Assembly (NCBI GenBank): GCA_902539115.1
Contig: CACBHP010000002.1
Coordinates: 1 to 64,000, forward strand
Reading direction: 5' to 3'
From: an uncultured Prochlorococcus sp.
GTDB taxonomy: Bacteria; Cyanobacteriota; Cyanobacteriia; PCC-6307; Cyanobiaceae
DNA length: 64,000 bases
The position numbers were made by a program, and so were the translations under genes. The notes below the pieces were generated by a model. It saw nothing but the letters and a program-made list of their open reading frames with translations. It had not been told where the DNA came from and made no database searches. Shown here in pieces: positions 29,548 through 53,744 of this stretch; position 1 is the first letter of the stretch, and every line of letters starts with the position of its first letter.

Positions 29548-29730
29548 TTTTATCTTTTTTTAGAGCCTAATTCAGATAATTTAACAAACTAAGGGAGTAT
29601 TCTTACCTAATTTTTAATAAAAAAGTCAGGAAAGCTTTACAAGGCATTTCAGATATACAAATATTTCCCCACATTACTCTCAATTTTTGTTACAGTCACT
29701 GCGTATCCCGATGCTAAAAAACGATTTCTC

Positions 29731-30807
29731 ATGACGATCGCAGTTGGTAGCGCCCCACAAAGAGGATGGTTTGATGTCCTCGATGATTGGTTGAAGCGCG
29801 ACCGCTTTGTATTTATTGGTTGGTCCGGACTACTCCTACTTCCTTGTGCATATCTTGCTATAGGTGGCTGGTTTGTCGGAACAACATTTGTTACCTCTTG
29901 GTACACACACGGAGTTGCAAGTTCATACCTTGAAGGTTGTAACTTCTTAACAGCAGCTGTAAGCACCCCTGGTGATGCCATGGGACACAGTCTTCTATTT
30001 TTATGGGGTCCAGAAGCCCAAGGTAGTTTCGTAAGATGGCTACAACTTGGTGGTCTTTGGAACTTCGTTGCATTACATGGAGTATTTGGCCTTATTGGTT
30101 TTATGCTTCGTCAGTTTGAAATTGCTGGTCTTGTTGGAATTAGACCATACAACGCACTAGCTTTCTCAGCAGTAATTGCAGTATTTACAAGTATTTTCCT
30201 TATTTATCCTTTAGGACAGCATAGTTGGTTCTTCGCACCTTCATTTGGTGTTGCAGCAATCTTCCGTTACATTCTGTTCATTCAAGGTTTTCACAATATC
30301 ACTTTAAATCCTTTCCACATGATGGGAGTTGCTGGAATTCTTGGTGGTGCTCTACTTTGCGCTATTCATGGAGCTACAGTACAAAATACTTTGTATGAAG
30401 ATACAAGTATTTATACAGATGGTAAGGTTCAAAGTTCAACATTTAGAGCTTTTGATCCAACTCAAGAAGAAGAAACTTATTCAATGATTACAGCGAATAG
30501 ATTCTGGAGTCAAATCTTCGGTATTGCTTTCTCAAACAAGCGTTTCTTACATTTCTTGATGTTATTTGTACCTGTTATGGGCATGTGGACATCTTCAATA
30601 GGTATTGTCGGCTTAGCACTAAACTTAAGAGCTTATGACTTCGTAAGCCAAGAAATTCGTGCAGCAGAAGATCCAGAATTTGAAACTTTCTATACAAAAA
30701 ATATACTTTTGAACGAAGGTATGCGAGCATGGATGTCTTCTGTGGATCAACCACACGAAAACTTTGTATTCCCTGAGGAGGTTCTACCACGTGGAAACGC
30801 CCTTTAA
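29731..30807 (+). CDS. psbD: photosystem II D2 protein
   Basis: Highly conserved D2 sequence. Confidence 0.99.
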
Positions 30808-32173
30808 TAGTTTACTTAGAGCCCCTAACCAGAGTATTGAAGAAACTGGTTATGCTTGGTATGTAGGTAACGCCAGATTAATTAATTTATCTGGCCGTTT
30901 ACTTGGAGCTCATATTGCACACACTGGTCTTATTGTTTTCTGGGCCGGTGCAATGATGTTATTCGAAGTTAGTCATTTCACATTCGATAAACCGATGTGG
31001 GAACAAGGCTTAATTTGTATGCCTCATGTTGCAATGTTTGGATTTGGAATAGGTCCTGGTGGAGAAGTTACTGATGTATACCCGTTCTTTGTGGCTGGTG
31101 TGATGCATTTAATTTCTTCTGCAGTCTTAGGATTTGGTGGTATTTATCATTCCTTAGCAGGTCCAGAAAAACTTGAGCAAGATTTTCCTTTCTTTTCAAC
31201 AGATTGGAGAGATAAGAATCAAATGACTAATATCTTGGGTTATCACCTAATAGTATTAGGAGTTGGTGCATTATTTTTCGTTTTTGATTGGATGTTCATT
31301 GGAGGCGCTTATGATACATGGGCACCTGGTGGTGGAGAAGTTAGGTTAGTCAGTCCTACATTAGATCCAAGAGTAATACTTGGTTACTTATTTAGATCTC
31401 CTTGGGGAGGCGCTGGTTCAATAATCGGTGTTAACTCAATAGAAGATATAGTCGGTGGTCACGTATACGTTGGAATTACTGCGATAATTGGTGGTCTTTT
31501 CCATATCTTTACTAAACCTTTTGGATGGGCAAGAAGAGCATTCATCTGGAATGGTGAAGGATTATTAAGTTACGCTCTTGGTGGAATTTGTGTAGCAAGT
31601 TTTATTGCATCAACATTCATCTGGTTTAATAATACTGCTTACCCTTCAGAATTTTATGGCCCAACAAATGCTGAAGCTTCACAAGCTCAAAGCTTTACTT
31701 TCCTCGTGAGAGATCAAAGAATTGGGGCTAATGTAGGTTCAACAATGGGACCAACAGGTCTAGGTAAGTATCTCATGAGATCTCCTACTGGTGAAATTAT
31801 ATTTGGTGGTGAAACAATGAGATTTTGGGATTTCAGAGGGCCATGGTTAGAGCCTTTAAGGGGTCCTAACGGATTGAGCCTTGAGAAAATTCAAAATGAT
31901 ATTCAGCCTTGGCAGGTAAGAAGAGCTGCTGAATATATGACTCATGCTCCTAACGCTTCTATCAACTCTGTTGGTGGAATTATTACAGAGCCTAATGCTG
32001 TTAACTTTGTTAACTTGAGACAATGGTTAGCTGCAGCTCAATTCTTCCTAGGATGGTTTACATTCATCGGTCATCTTTGGCATGCTGGACGTGCTAGAGC
32101 AGCTGCTGCTGGTTTCGAAAAAGGAATCGACAGAAAGAGTGAACCAGCTCTAGAAATGCCTGATTTAGATTAA
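30791..32173 (+). CDS. psbC: photosystem II CP43 protein, GTG start overlapping psbD by 17 nt
   Basis: [47 protein letters not shown]; track start 30764 is in-frame upstream. Confidence 0.97.
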
Positions 32174-32189
32174 CTTCTATCTCAACTAA

Positions 32190-32221
32190 AAAAGCCCTAT
32201 CTTTAGATAGGGTTTTTTTTT
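32190..32221 (+). terminator. terminator of psbDC
   Basis: aaaagCCCTATCTttAGATAGGGttttttttt. Confidence 0.85.
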
Positions 32222-32229
32222 GCTCAATT

Positions 32230-32844
32230 TTATTTTCTATATAAATTTTCTCTGAGCCATGGCAAACTTAAACCCATTACATTACTGAAACAACCCTCTA
32301 TTTTTTCTATATATTTACCGCCTATACCTTCTAAGGCAAATCCTCCGGCGCAATATAAGGGTTCATTTGTATCTACATAACTCTTGATTTCCCAATCCTC
32401 CAAATTAGAAAAATAAACTCTTGAACTTACTGTTTTTTTTATTATTTCACTGATTTTAAAAATTTTGGAAGTTGATTCAAAATTCCCAATTATTAGAGTA
32501 TGACCAGTATGCAAAAATCCAAATTCTCCAGACATTTTTTTCCATCTAATAAATGCTTCCTCTTTATTAGATGGTTTTCCATAAGCTTCTCCTTTAAATT
32601 CAAATATTGAATCACAGCCAAGTATTTCCAAAGGACCATAATTAAATTCTTCTGGCAATGATATGTTTCGAATATTTTCAGATAAACTATAAGCCTTTTG
32701 AAAAGATAATTCCAAAGCTAAATTAAAAATATTCTTATCTTGGATGGTAGTTTCATCAAAATCACTTGATATTTGGATAAATTCGATTTGACAATTTTCT
32801 AGTAATTTCTTTCTAGATTGAGAAGCAGAGGCTAGAATTAACAC
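32230..32844 (-). CDS. maf: Maf-family nucleotide pyrophosphatase
   Basis: [36 protein letters not shown]. Confidence 0.93.
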
Positions 32845-32910
32845 AAATTTTTTACCAAATTATAATTCAATTTAATAATTAATAAATTTTAAAATTAATA
32901 TAAATTACTA

Positions 32911-34440
32911 ATGGAGTTAGAAGCAAAATTACATAAAATAAATAAACCAATAATGGTTCTAGGCACTTCCAGTGGAGCAGGAAAATCGTTAACGGTTACT
33001 GCTATTTGCAGGATTCTTAAAAATTTAGGAGAAGAACCAATACCTTTTAAAGGACAAAATATGAGTAACAACGCATGGGTTGATTGGCAAGGTGGAGAGA
33101 TGGCATATTCACAAGCACTTCAAGCTTTCGCTTGTGGCATTAATCCATCTGCAGAGATGAATCCCATTTTATTAAAACCACAAGGAAACTCAATAAGCGA
33201 GGTGATTCACCTTGGCAAAAGCATAGGGACCACAACCGCACAAAATTACTATAAAGATTGGTTTATTCCAGGCTGGGAAGTAATTAAAAAAAGTTTAAAT
33301 TCTATTTACAAACGGAATCCGAATTGCCGTTTAATTATAGAAGGAGCAGGAAGTCCAGTAGAAATGAATTTGATTCATAGAGATCTAACAAATTTAAGAG
33401 TTGCTAAGTATTTAAACGCAAATTGCATTTTGGTTACTGATATTGAGAGAGGAGGAGTATTTGCACAAATAATCGGAACCCTTGAATTAATGAAACCAGA
33501 AGAAAAAAAACTCATTAAGGGAATCATTATTAATAGATTTAGAGGAGACCTCTCATTATTTGAGGAAGGGAAAAAATGGATAGAAAGTAAAACTAAAATC
33601 CCTGTTATTGGGATTATTCCATGGTTAAATAATACATTCCCTCCTGAAGATTCTTTAGATTTAATAGAGAAAAAATTACGTTTCTCGAATCCTGAGATCA
33701 ACGTTGGAATTATAAAATTGCCATCTATAAGTAACTTTTCAGATTTTGATCCATTAGAAAATGAAAAATCAATATTAATTGAATGGATTAGAGGATCACA
33801 AAACTTGAAGAAGTATGACTTTATTATTCTTCCTGGGAGTAAACAAACTATTAAAGATCAAATATTTCTTGAAAATTCAGGTTTATCTCAAGATATAAGG
33901 GAATATTCAAGTAATAATGGAAATATAGTTGGGATCTGTGGAGGTTTACAAATGCTAGGAACAACACTTGAAGATCCTTATTCTAAAGAGGGTTCCAGAA
34001 TTTATTCTGAACAAAAAACTAAAGGGATTGGATTACTGCCATTAAAAACCACTTTCCTTGAGAAAAAATTAACGCGTCAAATTAATTCGGAATCTTTATG
34101 GCCATGCCAAACAAAAATTAATGGTTTTGAAATTCACAATGGACAGACAAAATTAGACAAAACCCAAAATTTATTTGATATTAAGCCTATCTTCAAAGAT
34201 TTAGACCTAGGTTGGTATAAAGAAAATAATGGTGGTGGGACTATTGCAGGAACATATATTCATGGAATATTTGAAAATGATAGTTGGAGAGAGCAATATA
34301 TAAATTTAATAAGAAAGAGTAAAAATTTACCATTATTAAATAAAAAATCAATATCTTATAAAAAAAAGAGAGAATCTATTATTAATAATCTCGCTTATGA
34401 ATTTAATAAACATTTAAATCTCAAATCATTTTTAAGTTGA
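32911..34440 (+). CDS. cobQ: cobyric acid synthase
   Basis: GTSSGAGKSLTVTAICRIL, GICGGLQMLG, GTYIHGIF. Confidence 0.97.
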   Translation: MELEAKLHKINKPIMVLGTSSGAGKSLTVTAICRILKNLGEEPIPFKGQNMSNNAWVDWQGGEMAYSQALQAFACGINPSAEMNPILLKPQGNSISEVIHLGKSIGTTTAQNYYKDWFIPGWEVIKKSLNSIYKRNPNCRLIIEGAGSPVEMNLIHRDLTNLRVAKYLNANCILVTDIERGGVFAQIIGTLELMKPEEKKLIKGIIINRFRGDLSLFEEGKKWIESKTKIPVIGIIPWLNNTFPPEDSLDLIEKKLRFSNPEINVGIIKLPSISNFSDFDPLENEKSILIEWIRGSQNLKKYDFIILPGSKQTIKDQIFLENSGLSQDIREYSSNNGNIVGICGGLQMLGTTLEDPYSKEGSRIYSEQKTKGIGLLPLKTTFLEKKLTRQINSESLWPCQTKINGFEIHNGQTKLDKTQNLFDIKPIFKDLDLGWYKENNGGGTIAGTYIHGIFENDSWREQYINLIRKSKNLPLLNKKSISYKKKRESIINNLAYEFNKHLNLKSFLS

Positions 34441-34688
34441 AAGAAAAAAATATAAAAGTAATATGGCCAAATAATAATGAAACATTTGTTTCGGAGGGAG
34501 ATGATTGGTTCTCATCTGCAGAAAAAGCAGGTTTACATATTCCAACTGGCTGTCTAACAGGAAGTTGCGGTGCTTGTGAAATAGATGTGAATGGTGAAAC
34601 AGTAAGAGCTTGTATAAGCAATATTGAAAGTAAAAAAAAATCTCAATTAAATATTTCTCTTACTACAGACCCTTTTTGGAAAGACTAA
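34437..34688 (+). CDS. 2Fe-2S plant-type ferredoxin
   Basis: GCLTGSCGACEIDVNGETVRAC; TTG start overlapping cobQ stop. Confidence 0.9.
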   Translation: MKEKNIKVIWPNNNETFVSEGDDWFSSAEKAGLHIPTGCLTGSCGACEIDVNGETVRACISNIESKKKSQLNISLTTDPFWKD

Positions 34689-34822
34689 ATTATATGATTC
34701 TTGAAAATAAAAAATCAAATTTTATTCAAATTCCAGATCTCTTTTCTTAAAGAAGTTTTCCAAAATTAAGTAAGGTATATTGTTCCCACTTTATTTCCGT
34801 ACCAAATCCCAGATTAAAAGCT

Positions 34823-36517
34823 CTATCTTGGAGTCCCAAAGCGCCAAACCAGACTAACGTCAAAGGTATTGGCATCAAGATTCCCTTCTTTAGAAATCAC
34901 TTTACCTATACCAGTTTGAAGGCTGAAGTCATCAGAGAAATTGTATTCTAATCCCATACTTGGTTTGTACAGTAAGGCGCTACCACTATCAACGCCTCCA
35001 CCCCCTCCTACACCTATTAGCATTTCTCCATAGAGGTGCCAATTCTTCCAGTTCGGACTATTAAACCCTACACCCCAGTGTCCCTCTGAGTAGCCACCTG
35101 CTCCTCCTTCATACGCGCTTAATCCTTGTCCTGTAAAGTACAACCAATCTCCTACCATCCAGTCGATTTTTCCTCCCAAAAGTTGCATATCGCGTGAGGA
35201 TCCTCCTTTACGTTGCGCATCAAAATACCATTGGTGAGCTGGGCGAAAACGCCATTTATTAGTTTGAATAACATCTTTTTCACTTAAGAGTGCTCCTTTT
35301 TGATCCTGAGCAAAGCTTTCCATTACATATGCCAAATTGAAGCCAAAATATGGGGTTTCAAAAGTACCATCTGGTGCGGTGAGGTAGCCGCCGTCCATAA
35401 TCATGCTTAGATCTGGAGAAAGTCGATATTCCAATCCTAGATTTGCTCGAGCAACAAATCCTCCTCCGGTTTCAACTGCTCCGCCGCCCGCGCCCCCAAT
35501 GGTTAAAGCTGGGAGAAGAGCCAGACGATCATCTTTGGTTAGGGGGAGGCGATAGCCTATCCCCGCCAAAAGTTCGGCATAGCCACCTACTCCACCAGTT
35601 GCGGCACCGGCAGTTTCAAAAGTAGCAAACCAGTTTTCATCAAGAAAGTAAGAATAATCTACACCCACGATTCCCAAGGAATCATTAAACGATTCACCGG
35701 AGGTAGTTTTACTGCCACTGGAAGGATAATAAGCTCGAACGCGTGCGGCTAGATGTGATCGATGACGGCTTACATTATTCCAGTCGGTTCCGAAGTAATC
35801 GGCCACAGTCAGCCCATCATCTCCCCAATTTAGTGTAGGTGAAGTGAAAGGAATATCCAGTGAAAGAGTTATAGCATCGCTTGAAATATCTCCGTTGGGG
35901 AAGTCTACGTAGGAATAATTAAGCCCCAGTGCGCTCCAGTCAAAGTCATACTTTAGACCGATATGGGTGCGTATCATTAATCCCCCCCCTTGCGCCGCAG
36001 AACCACCGCCCCCTGCACCTACATAGGCTCCGGAGTCAAAAATCCAGTTATCCATTAACTGACGTTCCACGCCCAAGGTATAGCCACCAGTAAAAAAACC
36101 GCCACGGCGTCCGCTCGCAGCACCGTAAAGAGTTATACCTCCGTATAGCCAGGGGTTGAGTCGATCGTAAGCTCCAATACTATACAAACCCATGTATTCT
36201 CCTGCATCTGGCATATCAATTTCCTCGTAGGAAAACCGCAAGATGCGGTCACTCCAAGTTTTAGACTCCATCCAAGCGGATTTACCCCCTGAAGACTTAT
36301 TTGTTGAGAAATCTTCTTTATTGTTATCTTTAAAAAAATTTTCGTCCTCTTTGTAAGATTTCCATATAATTTTTTTCAATGGTTCAGTTTTATTTTCCTT
36401 CACCTTTTCCCAATTAACAGTATTAAATTCAGACAAATCTTTTTTTATTTTTTCAGCAAAAATTCCTAAAGAATTAAATAATTGACTAACTAAAAATATA
36501 TAAAAAATCCACCTCAT
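34823..36517 (-). CDS. glycine-rich, probably outer-membrane/beta-barrel protein with three homologous ~115-aa repeats
   Basis: Signal-peptide-like N-terminus; GGxGGY...GxGGGG...GLEY(R/N)(L/F) repeats; visibly higher GC than the rest of the window. Confidence 0.7.
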   Translation of the reverse strand: MRWIFYIFLVSQLFNSLGIFAEKIKKDLSEFNTVNWEKVKENKTEPLKKIIWKSYKEDENFFKDNNKEDFSTNKSSGGKSAWMESKTWSDRILRFSYEEIDMPDAGEYMGLYSIGAYDRLNPWLYGGITLYGAASGRRGGFFTGGYTLGVERQLMDNWIFDSGAYVGAGGGGSAAQGGGLMIRTHIGLKYDFDWSALGLNYSYVDFPNGDISSDAITLSLDIPFTSPTLNWGDDGLTVADYFGTDWNNVSRHRSHLAARVRAYYPSSGSKTTSGESFNDSLGIVGVDYSYFLDENWFATFETAGAATGGVGGYAELLAGIGYRLPLTKDDRLALLPALTIGGAGGGAVETGGGFVARANLGLEYRLSPDLSMIMDGGYLTAPDGTFETPYFGFNLAYVMESFAQDQKGALLSEKDVIQTNKWRFRPAHQWYFDAQRKGGSSRDMQLLGGKIDWMVGDWLYFTGQGLSAYEGGAGGYSEGHWGVGFNSPNWKNWHLYGEMLIGVGGGGGVDSGSALLYKPSMGLEYNFSDDFSLQTGIGKVISKEGNLDANTFDVSLVWRFGTPR

Positions 36518-36560: not shown

Positions 36561-36595
36561 AAAAAAAGGACCCCTAATTCTAGAGGTCTTTTTTG
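36561..36595 (-). terminator. intrinsic terminator-like hairpin upstream of the barrel gene
   Basis: aaaaaaaGGACCCCTaattctAGAGGTCttttttgg; no preceding annotated CDS on either strand. Confidence 0.55.
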
Positions 36596-36655
36596 GTTTA
36601 CTAAATCAAGTGTTGCCTTGTTTCCACTTTTTTAGAAAAACCACTCCTTCACACA
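36561..36655 (-). ncRNA. candidate sRNA or leader attenuator
   Basis: Orphan terminator preceded (minus strand) by GTGTGAAGGAGTGG...GTGGAAACAAGGCAACACTTG in a non-coding gap. Confidence 0.3.
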
Positions 36656-36942
36656 TTCTTTAAGTTATGCCATATATTTATTTCCGTGGAAGCATTAGAT
36701 GTAATGTTATTAAACTGTCATATGTGCCAGTTGTATATTTAAGGAGATTTTTAATTAAAAGCATCATAATTTATAGTAAAAGGTGTTTATTAATCGGAAA
36801 TTTAATGTGAGAGTGGTTTTTAATGAATATATAAACAGACGAAGAAAGGTATAAATTATCTAAAGTATTAATTTCTTCTCCCAAAATAGATAAAGATTTG
36901 AAAACTGGTTTTTAGTATCAACTATTGCCGTACTTGTTGAGA

Positions 36943-37325: not shown

Positions 37326-37928
37326 TTAGATTAAAAATAAAAAACACCCTGTAATAAATCCACTCAAATGACCTAATAAACTTACCCCTGGCAAAAAAGA
37401 GAAAATCAAACCTATAAGGCATATTGTCTTTGACATTTTTTGAACTTCATAATTGGACTTAAAACCAATTTCTTTTCCTAAAAAATATTTCTTTCCATAA
37501 AAAGAAGTTAATAGTATGAATCCAAATAAAGCATAAATTATTCCACTAAATCCTAAATTTGCATAATTCAGATAGATATTAAAATACGATAAAATCTTTT
37601 CGTAAAACCAAATAATAAAAAAATTTAAAAAAGAACAACTTAAAATAAACTTCAAATAAAAAAATCTGCTTTTAATTCCGAGTCTCATCAAAAAATATCT
37701 AGTGATAATTATTCCACCGAGATTACTTAATAAATGATTTAAATCTGCATGAGTTAGGATTGATGTAAAAATCCTATAGGGTTGAACACTAATTAATCTA
37801 GGGACAAAGTAAAAATAATCTTTATCAATAACTTCAATTAAATCAGTAAAAATAAAAACTGAGATTAAAAAAATTCCAGTTACAATATACTGGCAATCAT
37901 ATTTTGATATTGAATTATTAAAAGGCAT
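37326..37928 (-). CDS. rhomboid-family intramembrane serine protease
   Basis: HADLNHLLSN, GFSGIIYALFGF (GxSG), GHLSGF. Confidence 0.8.
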   Translation of the reverse strand: MPFNNSISKYDCQYIVTGIFLISVFIFTDLIEVIDKDYFYFVPRLISVQPYRIFTSILTHADLNHLLSNLGGIIITRYFLMRLGIKSRFFYLKFILSCSFLNFFIIWFYEKILSYFNIYLNYANLGFSGIIYALFGFILLTSFYGKKYFLGKEIGFKSNYEVQKMSKTICLIGLIFSFLPGVSLLGHLSGFITGCFLFLI

Positions 37929-38733: not shown

Positions 38734-38820
38734 CCGGAGAGGGTGGGATTCGAACCCACGAATAGTTTCCTATTAAACGATTTCGAGTCGTTCGCTTTCG
38801 ACCACTCAGCCACCTCTCCG
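38734..38820 (-). tRNA. tRNA-Ser (anticodon CGA)
   Basis: Acceptor CGGAGAG/CTCTCCG, anticodon loop CTCGAAA, GGTTCGAATCC T-loop, long variable arm, discriminator G. Confidence 0.95.
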
Positions 38821-38881: not shown

Positions 38882-39904
38882 TTACTTCCACCCTGCATCT
38901 TTCATGAATTTAATAGCTTGAGAATTTTTTTCTCCAAGGTCTTCTACAGTGACACTATCAGGTATAAACTCTCCAAAGTTTTTTACTATTTCATTCTGAT
39001 TAACTTCCTTCAAAGGATGTTCAAAAGTTGGAGCAGCTAAACCTTTACTTCCCTCTGGAGATGCTAAGAATTCAAGCAACTGAATAGCTTCATTTTTATT
39101 TGTTGCATATTTTGCAACACCACCGGCACTAATATTTACGTGTGCAGGATTAGGAGTTAGGACCTTTGTTTTTTTTGCATACAAAGCATCTCTTCTTCCA
39201 TTAACACCCGCTAACATTCTTGCTACATAATAATGATTAACAATTCCTACTCCACATTTTTTCTTAGAAACTGCTCTAATAATTGAAATATCACCTGGGA
39301 AGAATGGTTGGGAAACATTTGAAATCATTCCGCTTAACCAAGCTTTAGTTTCTGTTTGACCTTTATTAATTATTTGATTAGCAACTAAAGATTGATTATA
39401 TGGACTTTTTCTATTTCTTAAACATACTTTCCCTTTTAAAGATGGATCAGCCAAATCAGTGTAATCATTAATCTTGCTAACATCTACCACTTTTGGATTA
39501 ACTATCATAACTCTCACTCTTCTTGTTAATGCGTACCATTCCTTATTTGGATCTTTCAAGCCAACTGGAACATCATTTTCTAAATTAGAAGATGCTATTG
39601 GTTGAAGTAATCCAGCTTTGGCTGCATTAGTAATTCTTGCTGCATCTACAAGTAATATTAAATCTGCTTGAGAATTCTTTCCTTCTCTTTTCAATCTTTC
39701 AATTAAAGATATCCCTGCTGCTTCTATAAGCCTAACTTTAATTCCTGTTTCTTCTGCAAATTTTTTATAGACGCTCCTATCAGTGTTGTAATGTCTCCCG
39801 GAATAAACTTTGACTTCTTTTTCAGTTGAGTTAGCAGGTATATTAACGTTTAGCAAAAATGTACATGTAAATACTGAAAAAATTAATTTTTTAAGTTTTT
39901 GCAC
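38882..39904 (-). CDS. futA: Fe(III) ABC transporter substrate-binding protein (FutA/IdiA type)
   Basis: VKVYSGRHYNTDRSVYKKFAEETGIKVRLIEA; YY iron-binding region. Confidence 0.93.
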   Translation of the reverse strand: MQKLKKLIFSVFTCTFLLNVNIPANSTEKEVKVYSGRHYNTDRSVYKKFAEETGIKVRLIEAAGISLIERLKREGKNSQADLILLVDAARITNAAKAGLLQPIASSNLENDVPVGLKDPNKEWYALTRRVRVMIVNPKVVDVSKINDYTDLADPSLKGKVCLRNRKSPYNQSLVANQIINKGQTETKAWLSGMISNVSQPFFPGDISIIRAVSKKKCGVGIVNHYYVARMLAGVNGRRDALYAKKTKVLTPNPAHVNISAGGVAKYATNKNEAIQLLEFLASPEGSKGLAAPTFEHPLKEVNQNEIVKNFGEFIPDSVTVEDLGEKNSQAIKFMKDAGWK

Positions 39905-50607: not shown

Positions 50608-50859
50608 ATGAAGTCAGCAAACCCTGAAAATGAATTTATCCCTTTAGATCTTAGGATTTCTGTAAGGAGGGATACTCTACGGCTTATCTCAGAGATGGCG
50701 CAAGATATGGGAATAAGCATTAATGAAGTTTTTAGTTTTTTAGCCGAAGATTCTGTCATCGATCTCGAATTAATGGAAGATTTGAATAATATCGATATCC
50801 CGAGCAAGTGCAGCCTTGATGATCTCAAAAACGCTCTTCTTAAAAAAAGACTTTGTTAG
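50608..50859 (+). CDS. small ribbon-helix-helix-like protein
   Basis: IPLDLRISVRRDTLRLISEMAQDMGISINEVFSFLAED. Confidence 0.5.
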   Translation: MKSANPENEFIPLDLRISVRRDTLRLISEMAQDMGISINEVFSFLAEDSVIDLELMEDLNNIDIPSKCSLDDLKNALLKKRLC

Positions 50860-52661
50860 AATTTTTCAACTTTTCTATTTTCCCAGTCAGATTTATAACC
50901 ACTATTAACTAGAAATTTAGAAAAATTATTTAAATCACTTTTTTGAATGCGCCATAAATTATAAATCCCAAATTTGCCCAATTTTTGATGATTAATTTTT
51001 GACCATTGCTTTCCGCGGGAAGAGTATTCATCTATCACAACCAATAGAGATTTGTATTCATAATCAGGTTGATCCTCATAATTTTCTCTCCTATCAGTAT
51101 TCAGCCTTTCTGACAGATTAATTAATCCCTCTTCAGTGTTTGGTTCATAAAAAACTATTTGCCTCGAATAATAATGTAATGACGGTTTTCTTATCCCGAT
51201 CATTGCTAAAGTTTCCCTCCCCTCGCGAGTATCTAAAATTAATTTTGAGATATTCCTTAAAGGTAATTGTCTAGAAGTATCTGCTAATTTTCTAATTGGG
51301 GACATCAAATAAGATTGTCCTATTAAAAGTAAAATTTGAAGATAAAGAAGGATATTTTTAGATTTTAAAGAAAATAGTATTATTGCTAGAAGGGTAAATG
51401 AAGAGAAGAAAAATTTAGCTTTGAAAATAATCCCAGAGCTTATTAATTCGGATGCAAGATTAGGCATTTCGGGATCATTAATTGAACTTAACCAATTATT
51501 TGAGAAAAAGAGTGTTAAGGATAAGCCAAACAAAATTAAAATATTAAAAATCCAGAAATATAAATAACTTTTATTTATATTTTTTAAGCTTATAAAGCTA
51601 TTACTTGTTAATAACGCCGCTGCTGGAATTGCTGGCAACCAATAGCTAGGTAGTTTCGTTGCAGAAAGGCTAAAGAAGATTAAAACTGACGTTAACCAAC
51701 ATAAAGAATATGTATAAAGGGTTTCAGTGACATTGTAAGTTTCTTTTAAACTTTTAAAAAAATCCTTAAAAGATTTTAAAATCCCATGATACAAAAAAGG
51801 AGTGAATGGTAATGAAGCCAGTATCATTATGTAAAGAAAAAACCAGAATGGTTCTGCATGATTATTTACAACTGAGGTATATCTTTGAATATTATGGTAT
51901 CCAAAAAAATTATCCCAAAAAGGCTTTCCCTCTTTTAAAAGTTCTAATATGTACCATGGAACACTTATTAATGTTGTTATTAAAAACCCTTTTTTAGGGT
52001 TTATCTTGCGGAGCAACTTTTTCCAATTCTTCTGACAAAACAAAAAAGACGTAATAGTCAAGAACGTCAAAACAAATGCAACAGGTCCTTTAACTAAAAT
52101 TGCAAAACCTAAAAATACCCAAGCTGAAATGCATTGATCATTATTTTCACTTGCCATTCTTCTCCAAAACAAAAGCAGGCTAATCCCTAGGGTTCCAGTT
52201 AAAAGGGCATCACTCACGGCAGTTCTACTCCAAATAATTATTAATGGAGAAAGAGCAAAGCCTAATGATGCAACTATTGGAGTGAGAAATTGCCTATCAC
52301 TCTTCTGTGGCCAACAAAACAACGTATCTCCAATCATCAACATTAAAAATAATGATGCCAAAGCTGAAGGGAGTCTTGCTGAGATAGTCCCGAAGCTATC
52401 CCAAATCTCATTTTTCGGTAATGAGTAAAAAAAACCCATTAGCCAATATATCATTGGAGGCTTATCAAAACGGAATATTCCATTGACTTTTGGAGTTAAC
52501 CAATCACCAGATTCACTCATTGCCCGTGCTGCAGCGGCAAATAAAGGTGGAGTTTCATCCACCAATCCTGTAGTACCTAAATCTAAGATAAATATAATGA
52601 TCCCACAAACTAAAACTATCAATAAGGTTATAAGCCTTTTTTTTGAGTTAAGAAGAATCAT
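50856..52661 (-). CDS. glycosyltransferase family 39 (ArnT-like)
   Basis: GTTGLVDETPPLFAAAARAMSESGDWLTPKVNGIFRFDKPPMIYWL. Confidence 0.92.
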   Translation of the reverse strand: MILLNSKKRLITLLIVLVCGIIIFILDLGTTGLVDETPPLFAAAARAMSESGDWLTPKVNGIFRFDKPPMIYWLMGFFYSLPKNEIWDSFGTISARLPSALASLFLMLMIGDTLFCWPQKSDRQFLTPIVASLGFALSPLIIIWSRTAVSDALLTGTLGISLLLFWRRMASENNDQCISAWVFLGFAILVKGPVAFVLTFLTITSFLFCQKNWKKLLRKINPKKGFLITTLISVPWYILELLKEGKPFWDNFFGYHNIQRYTSVVNNHAEPFWFFLYIMILASLPFTPFLYHGILKSFKDFFKSLKETYNVTETLYTYSLCWLTSVLIFFSLSATKLPSYWLPAIPAAALLTSNSFISLKNINKSYLYFWIFNILILFGLSLTLFFSNNWLSSINDPEMPNLASELISSGIIFKAKFFFSSFTLLAIILFSLKSKNILLYLQILLLIGQSYLMSPIRKLADTSRQLPLRNISKLILDTREGRETLAMIGIRKPSLHYYSRQIVFYEPNTEEGLINLSERLNTDRRENYEDQPDYEYKSLLVVIDEYSSRGKQWSKINHQKLGKFGIYNLWRIQKSDLNNFSKFLVNSGYKSDWENRKVEKF

Positions 52662-52667
52662 TTAATA

Positions 52668-53744
52668 TTATTTATATTCATGCATTACCTTATTAAGCCA
52701 GTTCACAACCTTGTTAGCAAATATATCTGAGGAGGCATTTTTTTCTACCCATTCTCTACATTTCTGACGCTTTATTTTTTCAATAATCTCTACATAAGAA
52801 AGCATATTTTTTTTATCATCAGGATCCGCAAGATAACCTGTTTGGCCATGCTGAATAATTTCACTAGGTCCTCCCCTTTTATAGGCAACAACAGGCACCC
52901 CACAGGCTAAAGCTTCTACAATAACGTTCCCGTATGCCTCATTCCATTTCGGAGTATTTAGCAACCCTCTGCATTTACCAAGTTCTTTTTGTAATTCATC
53001 AGTTGATAAAAACCCCATCCAATCTATGGCTCCTTGAGGGAACGATTTTTCTATCTTTGATGCATAAATCTTATCTTCTATAAATCCCCAAACTTTTAAT
53101 TTTTCGCCAAGTTGGTTTGCTACATAAACTGCATCCTCCAAGCCTTTCTCCGGAGCCACTCTCCCCACCCATGCCAAGGGTCCCTTAACTGAATCTTGAA
53201 AAATATAATTATCCAAATTAAACCCATTCCCAATAATTGTTGGTTTTTTTATGAAAGGATAATCATTAGCTTGCATTTTCGAATGAAAAGCAAAATTATT
53301 TGGATATCTAGCATATACCCTAGAGATTAAATTACTAATTATTGAACTTTCAGAACCCATACTAATAATATGTGCAATGGGTATCTCTAAATTTAAAGTC
53401 ATCCAGATAGGCAACCAATCATAGGACATGTTCAACAATACATCTGCATTTTTAGCGATATCTATTCCCTTTTCAAACATTCCTACTAAAAGAGAATTAT
53501 CTGGGATAATCACGGGAGAATTATAATTTTGATGCTGCCAACTAATTTGATCTTCACCTTCAACAAAATGTAATTTTGCTTTTACATTACTTTCATGTAA
53601 CTTAGAATTTTTTGGAGCTACAACCTCAACAGAATGACCTAAAGAAATTAAACCTGAAACTAAAGAATTTAAAGTTAATTCAACTCCACCACCTTTACCA
53701 CTCCCTAAGAACCCTATTGGAGTACTAATCAAAACTATTCGCAT
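52668..53744 (-). CDS. glycosyltransferase family 4
   Basis: GKGGGVELTLNSLVSGLISLGHSVEVVAP; NVIVEALACGVPVVAYKRGGPSEII. Confidence 0.92.
   Translation of the reverse strand: MRIVLISTPIGFLGSGKGGGVELTLNSLVSGLISLGHSVEVVAPKNSKLHESNVKAKLHFVEGEDQISWQHQNYNSPVIIPDNSLLVGMFEKGIDIAKNADVLLNMSYDWLPIWMTLNLEIPIAHIISMGSESSIISNLISRVYARYPNNFAFHSKMQANDYPFIKKPTIIGNGFNLDNYIFQDSVKGPLAWVGRVAPEKGLEDAVYVANQLGEKLKVWGFIEDKIYASKIEKSFPQGAIDWMGFLSTDELQKELGKCRGLLNTPKWNEAYGNVIVEALACGVPVVAYKRGGPSEIIQHGQTGYLADPDDKKNMLSYVEIIEKIKRQKCREWVEKNASSDIFANKVVNWLNKVMHEYK

Follow-up and report, generated by a model that had tools for sequence, protein, structure and literature searches.

Replacement flexible genomic islands of aquatic prokaryotes hold alternative surface genes at one site, and these genes are exchanged through conserved flanks (PMC4033161). 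A chain with two outer-membrane barrels is predicted for GfcD of the Escherichia coli group 4 capsule (PMC11494523). We analyzed a gene that recalls both systems in a 64,000-nucleotide stretch of DNA from an uncultured Prochlorococcus sp. (the window). The window locus also alternates surface genes at one site, but the exchanged piece here appears to be smaller than a gene: the barrel body is replaced, the leader is kept, and a 3' scar is left. Whole-island exchange is already well known, and gene-internal barrel exchange at a fixed locus would be a variant of surface-gene replacement. GfcD and the window protein each have more than one predicted outer-membrane barrel per polypeptide. GfcD has 12+13 strands with a periplasmic domain between them and a lateral gate, whereas the window protein has 8+8+8 repeats; the likeness is one of architecture only, and no homology is claimed. 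Our main reading, with a probability of about 0.78, is that the product is an outer-membrane protein whose body was replaced, at a fixed locus, by a non-homologous one: a GC-rich body (type A) stands in the place of a resident body (type B). Its sequence support comes from the chimaera, the scar, the repeated swaps, the three repeat units, and the mutual exclusivity of the two types.

Locus and composition of the gene

The neighbors at 29731..34688, named from sequence, are genes that we take to be psbD, psbC, maf, cobQ, and a 2Fe-2S ferredoxin-like gene. The 3'-side markers are placed by synteny over ~50 loci.

29731-30807, plus strand: psbD, 3'-side locus marker
30764-32173, plus strand: psbC, 3'-side locus marker
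32230-32844, minus strand: maf, 3'-side locus marker
32911-34440, plus strand: cobQ, 3'-side locus marker
34437-34688, plus strand: 2Fe-2S ferredoxin-like ORF (fdx), 3'-side locus marker
34823..36517, minus strand: chimaeric ORF of 564 aa with an ATG start (type A, psb locus); full-length relatives exist
36590..36658, minus strand: Cyano-1 sRNA and terminator just upstream of the gene (Rfam RF01701, 62.6 bits)
37326-37928, minus strand: rhomboid protease, 5'-side locus marker (Pfam PF01694)
38734-38820, minus strand: tRNA-Ser(cga), 5'-side locus marker
38882-39904, minus strand: FutA-like iron-binding protein, 5'-side locus marker

The GC content climbs from ~0.28 upstream of the gene to 0.44-0.49 over 34750-36250. 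The GC of 34823-36250 is 0.472 compared to 0.323 ± 0.030 for 1400-bp windows outside (z 4.9), the best of which reaches 0.407 at psbD/psbC. The next best 500-bp window elsewhere has a GC of 0.442 at 29701. The leader (aa 1-76) has a GC of 0.23 and a GC3 of 0.21, which is the host composition, and the body (aa 88-564) has a GC of 0.47, a GC3 of 0.37, and a GC4 of 0.36, with the composition break at ~aa 51-90. The first-pass annotation had described a GC-rich body behind a host-like leader as the most GC-rich part of the window, and the GC profile bears out both the discordance and the rank. The GC4 of the whole gene is 0.343, first of 47 and compared to 0.169 ± 0.039 for the 46 other ORFs, so the GC excess is more than glycine content; amino-acid composition alone was ruled out as the cause by GC4. 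Two adjacent genes at 50856-53744 (minus strand) have the next-highest GC4, 0.24-0.25, a small deviation.

It is possible, though doubtful, that the high GC is selected or driven by amino acids, through a glycine-rich barrel or codon preference, and that A is an old Prochlorococcus gene. Glycine does raise GC12, and despite deep divergence all orthologues in the genus g1 hold a GC4 of 0.29-0.44, the same raised GC as the window gene. The outside donor suggested by the first-pass annotation did not turn up in 386 cyanobacterial genomes, phages, plasmids, or viral contigs (IMG/VR), other phyla being searched weakly. However, GC4 is free of amino-acid choice and is twice that of other genes, the highly expressed psbC (0.13) included. 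The A genes in g11 have a GC4 of 0.52-0.55 and a GC of 0.51-0.53 at a locus GC of ~0.37, which is what an import that has partly ameliorated should show. The pattern named beforehand as the sign of selected composition, the same high GC throughout Prochlorococcus at one conserved position, was not found: ~15% of the genomes carry A, at several loci. The GC4 of A fits either an old import still ameliorating or a maintained composition.

A resident-type leader on an unrelated body

34826..36256, minus strand: GC-rich body A, aa 88-564, putatively swapped in (composition, A alignments, unrelated to the B body)
36284..36517, minus strand: resident leader, aa 1-78 (low GC, common with B genes, leader tree, W motifs)

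The leader consists of a hydrophobic signal segment (aa 1-21) followed by a low-confidence periplasmic stretch, and it holds two W motifs, VNWEKV and IIWKSY. The genus was searched in 200 Prochlorococcus genomes. Body A matched in 30, the window's included (29-30 full-length, 71-88% identity), and 2 further genomes have truncated A genes; A is absent from ~85%. About 40 other genomes match aa 1-76 only (43-67% identity) in frames of 300-660 aa, where the leader sits on an unrelated AT-rich body. These bodies are type B (~607 aa) or type C (~320 aa, the leader plus the C-terminal half of B). Profile comparison detected no relation between the A and B bodies (hhalign probability 0.3%). Type B is an inherited family gene, because it is present in 21 of the 59 genera of the family; one member is DUF5777-like (E 2e-6). 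Type A was found in two Prochlorococcus genera only, in g1 and in two g11 genomes, in profile searches of 386 genomes of the phylum and 300 of the family.

The W motif (W-E/K-x-hydrophobic) recurs 1-4 times in B relatives, and two g11 A genes have other leaders that lack it. One B leader (L113:6001-7932) carries an 18-aa unit, ESEPLNKVIWKSYKNDEN, as three near-identical tandem copies. The window gene has a W-motif leader of the type B family (aa 1-76, nested among B leaders). The types have a common locus and a common leader, both are barrels, and A probably follows the same export route as B. Body A is not homologous to the B barrel body, and B is widespread in the family whereas A is not; the B-derived parts are the leader and the 3' scar alone. 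These comparisons show that the gene is chimaeric, its leader being of host type and its body of different origin. The earlier proposal of a foreign-composition domain fused to a host-type leader agrees with the shared leaders, the unrelated bodies, and the B remnant 3' of A. Its variant, in which the N terminus is the ameliorated part of an import, does not hold, since this leader is that of the resident B gene. A docking role for the W motif is a guess.

The gene order psbD-psbC-maf-cobQ-fdx-[gene]-(rhomboid)-futA is found in the window, the 10 other A loci fetched, and nearly all B and C loci fetched. The fdx-futA interval is occupied by A, B, C, or remnants, which makes them alternative surface genes between conserved flanks. 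The relatives without the A gene at this locus, which the first-pass annotation had pointed to as informative, in many cases carry another body there.

A candidate scar of the displaced gene

34706..34766, minus strand: candidate scar, last ~20 codons of the displaced B gene (nhmmer, B 3'-end profile, 10.0 bits)
34767..34822, minus strand: ~55 nt of 3' flank that apparently came with body A (similar, side by side, to the sequence 3' of A genes at other loci)

The DNA past the A stops was scanned with an nhmmer profile built from the 3'-terminal 180 nt of 34 B genes. In all 11 A genes at the psb locus, a same-strand match lies 53-61 nt beyond the stop and ends at identical profile positions. 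The match beats 100/100 dinucleotide shuffles in each of the 11 loci. The same profile detected a scar in 0/15 A genes at other loci. The longest scar, in L015, is 151 nt (E 4e-13). The window's scar is weak by itself (10 bits, E 0.08), and the case rests on the register common to the 11 loci. The scar and the A-like ~55-nt flank suggest that the A body entered a B gene with its own 3' flank and left the B ends in place.

Leader and body trees were compared. The leader tree is built on 68 columns, and only its starred forks were used. The A leader of L015 is sister to the B leader of L096 (96/91), the window and L002 leaders lie by other B leaders, and eight A leaders form a third group. The leaders of A genes at other loci make one clade (99/95) distinct from the psb-locus A leaders. 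In the body tree, the L015 body falls in a group with L014, L018, and L020 (100/99), and the remaining ten A bodies of the psb locus cluster together (98/98). The starred branches require at least two changes in each tree. Because the leader and body trees conflict, B-to-A swaps appear to have happened at least twice. The same conflict rules out a single inherited insertion of A at the psb locus. Some of the A genes there may be inherited copies of one swap. We infer the B-to-A direction from the scar and from phylogenetic breadth. In the cobQ tree, A and B strains are intermixed and the window is sister to a B strain (100/98), so A and B alleles also move between strains by flank recombination.

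Decay of both types was observed. Decaying B genes in the fdx-futA interval of L157-L162 (genomes G199, G133, G155, G078, G138, and G021) range from near-full copies with stops to a 31-codon stub. Independent decay of B is common at the psb locus, and one of these genomes, G199 (L157), carries A at another site. A frameshift or in-frame stop interrupts the A genes at L019:6001-7688 and in genomes G008 and G181, so some strains are losing A as well.

Exclusivity, proposed replacement, and driver

The 32 A and 58 B genomes among the 200 share a single genome, with a 33-aa B remnant, compared to 9.3 expected (P 1e-4), in a test that ignores relatedness and includes many incomplete genomes. An intact A together with an intact B was never seen in one of the 200 genomes. 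This overlap of 1 versus 9.3 suggests that A substitutes for B.

The following scheme would account for the locus. The ancestral psb-locus gene would have been type B, encoding an AT-rich barrel body behind a signal peptide and a short W-motif leader in the periplasm. Recombination would have swapped the B body, from just past the leader to ~20 codons before the stop, for the GC-rich A body, which would have arrived with ~55 nt of its own 3' flank. The B leader would have been kept upstream and the last B codons downstream as the scar. Sec would export the product by way of the leader signal, the leader and the linkers (~28 and ~19 residues) would stay periplasmic, and BAM would insert three consecutive 8-stranded OmpA-like barrels. 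We infer the export and insertion steps, the separateness of the three barrels, and the functional equivalence to B. A broader version is more tentative, and we hold it at somewhat less than even odds: a three-in-one barrel cassette repeatedly replaces the resident body, A and B persist at the one Prochlorococcus locus as a long-lived polymorphism of mutually exclusive alternatives, and the conserved W-motif leader is a common docking or assembly adaptor for unrelated barrels. A barrel-only swap with the leader kept, a datable scar, and repeated cases would amount to gene-internal non-homologous replacement in wild populations. An adaptor function of the leader for unrelated barrels, if real, would point to an uncharacterised outer-membrane assembly or anchoring step in picocyanobacteria.

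Escape from phages (or grazers) may drive the swap, whole-barrel exchange removing the receptor, although we consider this unlikely. Where surface genes of marine picoplankton are exchangeable, this is how they are commonly accounted for (PMC4033161). In its favor, close relatives variously carry A, B, truncated forms, or dead remnants, and A elsewhere adjoins tRNA-Pro or tRNA-Ala. Against it, the outer loops predicted for A are short and match the strands in conservation (0.90 versus 0.91; turns 0.85), in contrast to the loops typical of phage receptors. Loop hypervariability was looked for in A as a sign of phage pressure and was not seen. The conserved surface loops thus argue against phage escape at the level of loops.

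Predicted barrel architecture

34838..35257, minus strand: predicted barrel unit 3, aa 421-560, 8 strands (AF2 of this unit alone, Foldseek, truncated natural variants)
35315..35764, minus strand: predicted barrel unit 2, aa 252-401, 8 predicted strands (AF2; repeat homology)
35849..36247, minus strand: predicted barrel unit 1, aa 91-223, 8 predicted strands (AF2; repeat homology)

The first-pass annotation had called the gene barrel-like, and structure prediction backs this. The AF2 model of the whole protein has 24 strands arranged as 3x8, but it is a poor model (pLDDT 57). The three units are divergent yet homologous (hhalign 83/93/97%), and linkers of 28 and 19 residues occur solely after strands 8 and 16. 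Unit 3, the unit folded alone, is predicted to be a closed OmpA/OprF-like barrel (pLDDT 85, pTM 0.77) with the OmpA-like 8-stranded fold. Foldseek matched it to OprF (4rlc, TM 0.73/0.78, prob 1.00) and also to OmpA, NspA, OmpX, and Ail. The general features of an outer-membrane barrel are predicted: an N-terminal hydrophobic helix, strands, and a C-terminal aromatic residue. The last strand ends in LVWRF followed by GTPR, and the chain stops 4 residues past strand 24. Like OmpA, the OprF N-terminal domain, NspA, OmpX, and Ail, unit 3 has 8 predicted strands and short periplasmic turns (TM ~0.6-0.78). In contrast to OmpA-type barrels, the window protein has three units per chain and short conserved Gly-rich loops, and no sequence homology to them was detectable in Pfam or the PDB. 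No Pfam family matched at E <= 1 in 19 A members, PF01389 and PF13505 included, and no Pfam match to a C-terminal peptidoglycan-binding OmpA domain was found.

Three consecutive 8-stranded barrels in one chain are the most likely arrangement, and this would be a rare architecture. That the body is instead a single 24-stranded barrel is improbable. It would agree with the 24 predicted strands and with full-model matches to 22-strand TonB receptors and 18-strand porins (TM ~0.25, rmsd ~20 A), but those Foldseek matches come from a low-confidence model and were set aside as evidence. The confident fold of unit 3 alone, the placement of the long linkers, and the natural occurrence of one-unit variants speak against it. 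In L111:5989-6684 and L112:7330-8001 the leader runs directly into unit 3, the sole unit left, and the junction is the WR word that opens units 1 and 3. The two leaders differ, so the deletion at this word perhaps arose twice independently.

Age and distribution of body A

The mean identity at 4-fold sites among the 11 locus strains is 0.63 for the A body compared to 0.68 for futA, 0.73 for cobQ, 0.78 for psbC, and 0.88 for maf. Since the synonymous sites of A are as diverged as those of core genes, its acquisition appears to be old and not recent. Neither the low synonymous divergence of a recently acquired island gene nor, in the cyanobacterial, phage, plasmid, and viral-contig searches, a near-identical donor was found. 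The first proposal, in which this lineage recently gained a foreign surface gene that is joined to a host export region or has ameliorated only there, is very improbable: the gene is a GC and GC4 outlier and its patchy presence at several loci fits, but A is present in 32/200 genomes with core-like divergence and in two genera with the same raised GC, and its leader is that of the resident gene. No credible match for A was found in Pfam, NCBIfam, PHROGs, or PDB sequences. In the genome profile searches, five family-wide matches at E 0.01-0.02 spanned 34-42 profile positions only. A GC-rich match in L119 was judged a compositional chance.

Away from the psb locus, six A genes adjoin tRNA-Pro(tgg), lying within ~2 kb of it (L004, L006, L017, L111, L117, and L118; several near porin-like genes), and two adjoin tRNA-Ala(ggc) (L018 and L020). 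Cyano-1, in some cases with Yfr10, is also present upstream of other A or B genes at the psb locus (L002, L003, L013, L070, L080, and L086). IsrR, the antisense RNA of isiA, matches in Rfam at ~150 bits opposite psbC in L003:11128-11311 and in eight other loci. This match probably arises from psbC/isiA coding similarity, but it could be a real psbC antisense RNA.
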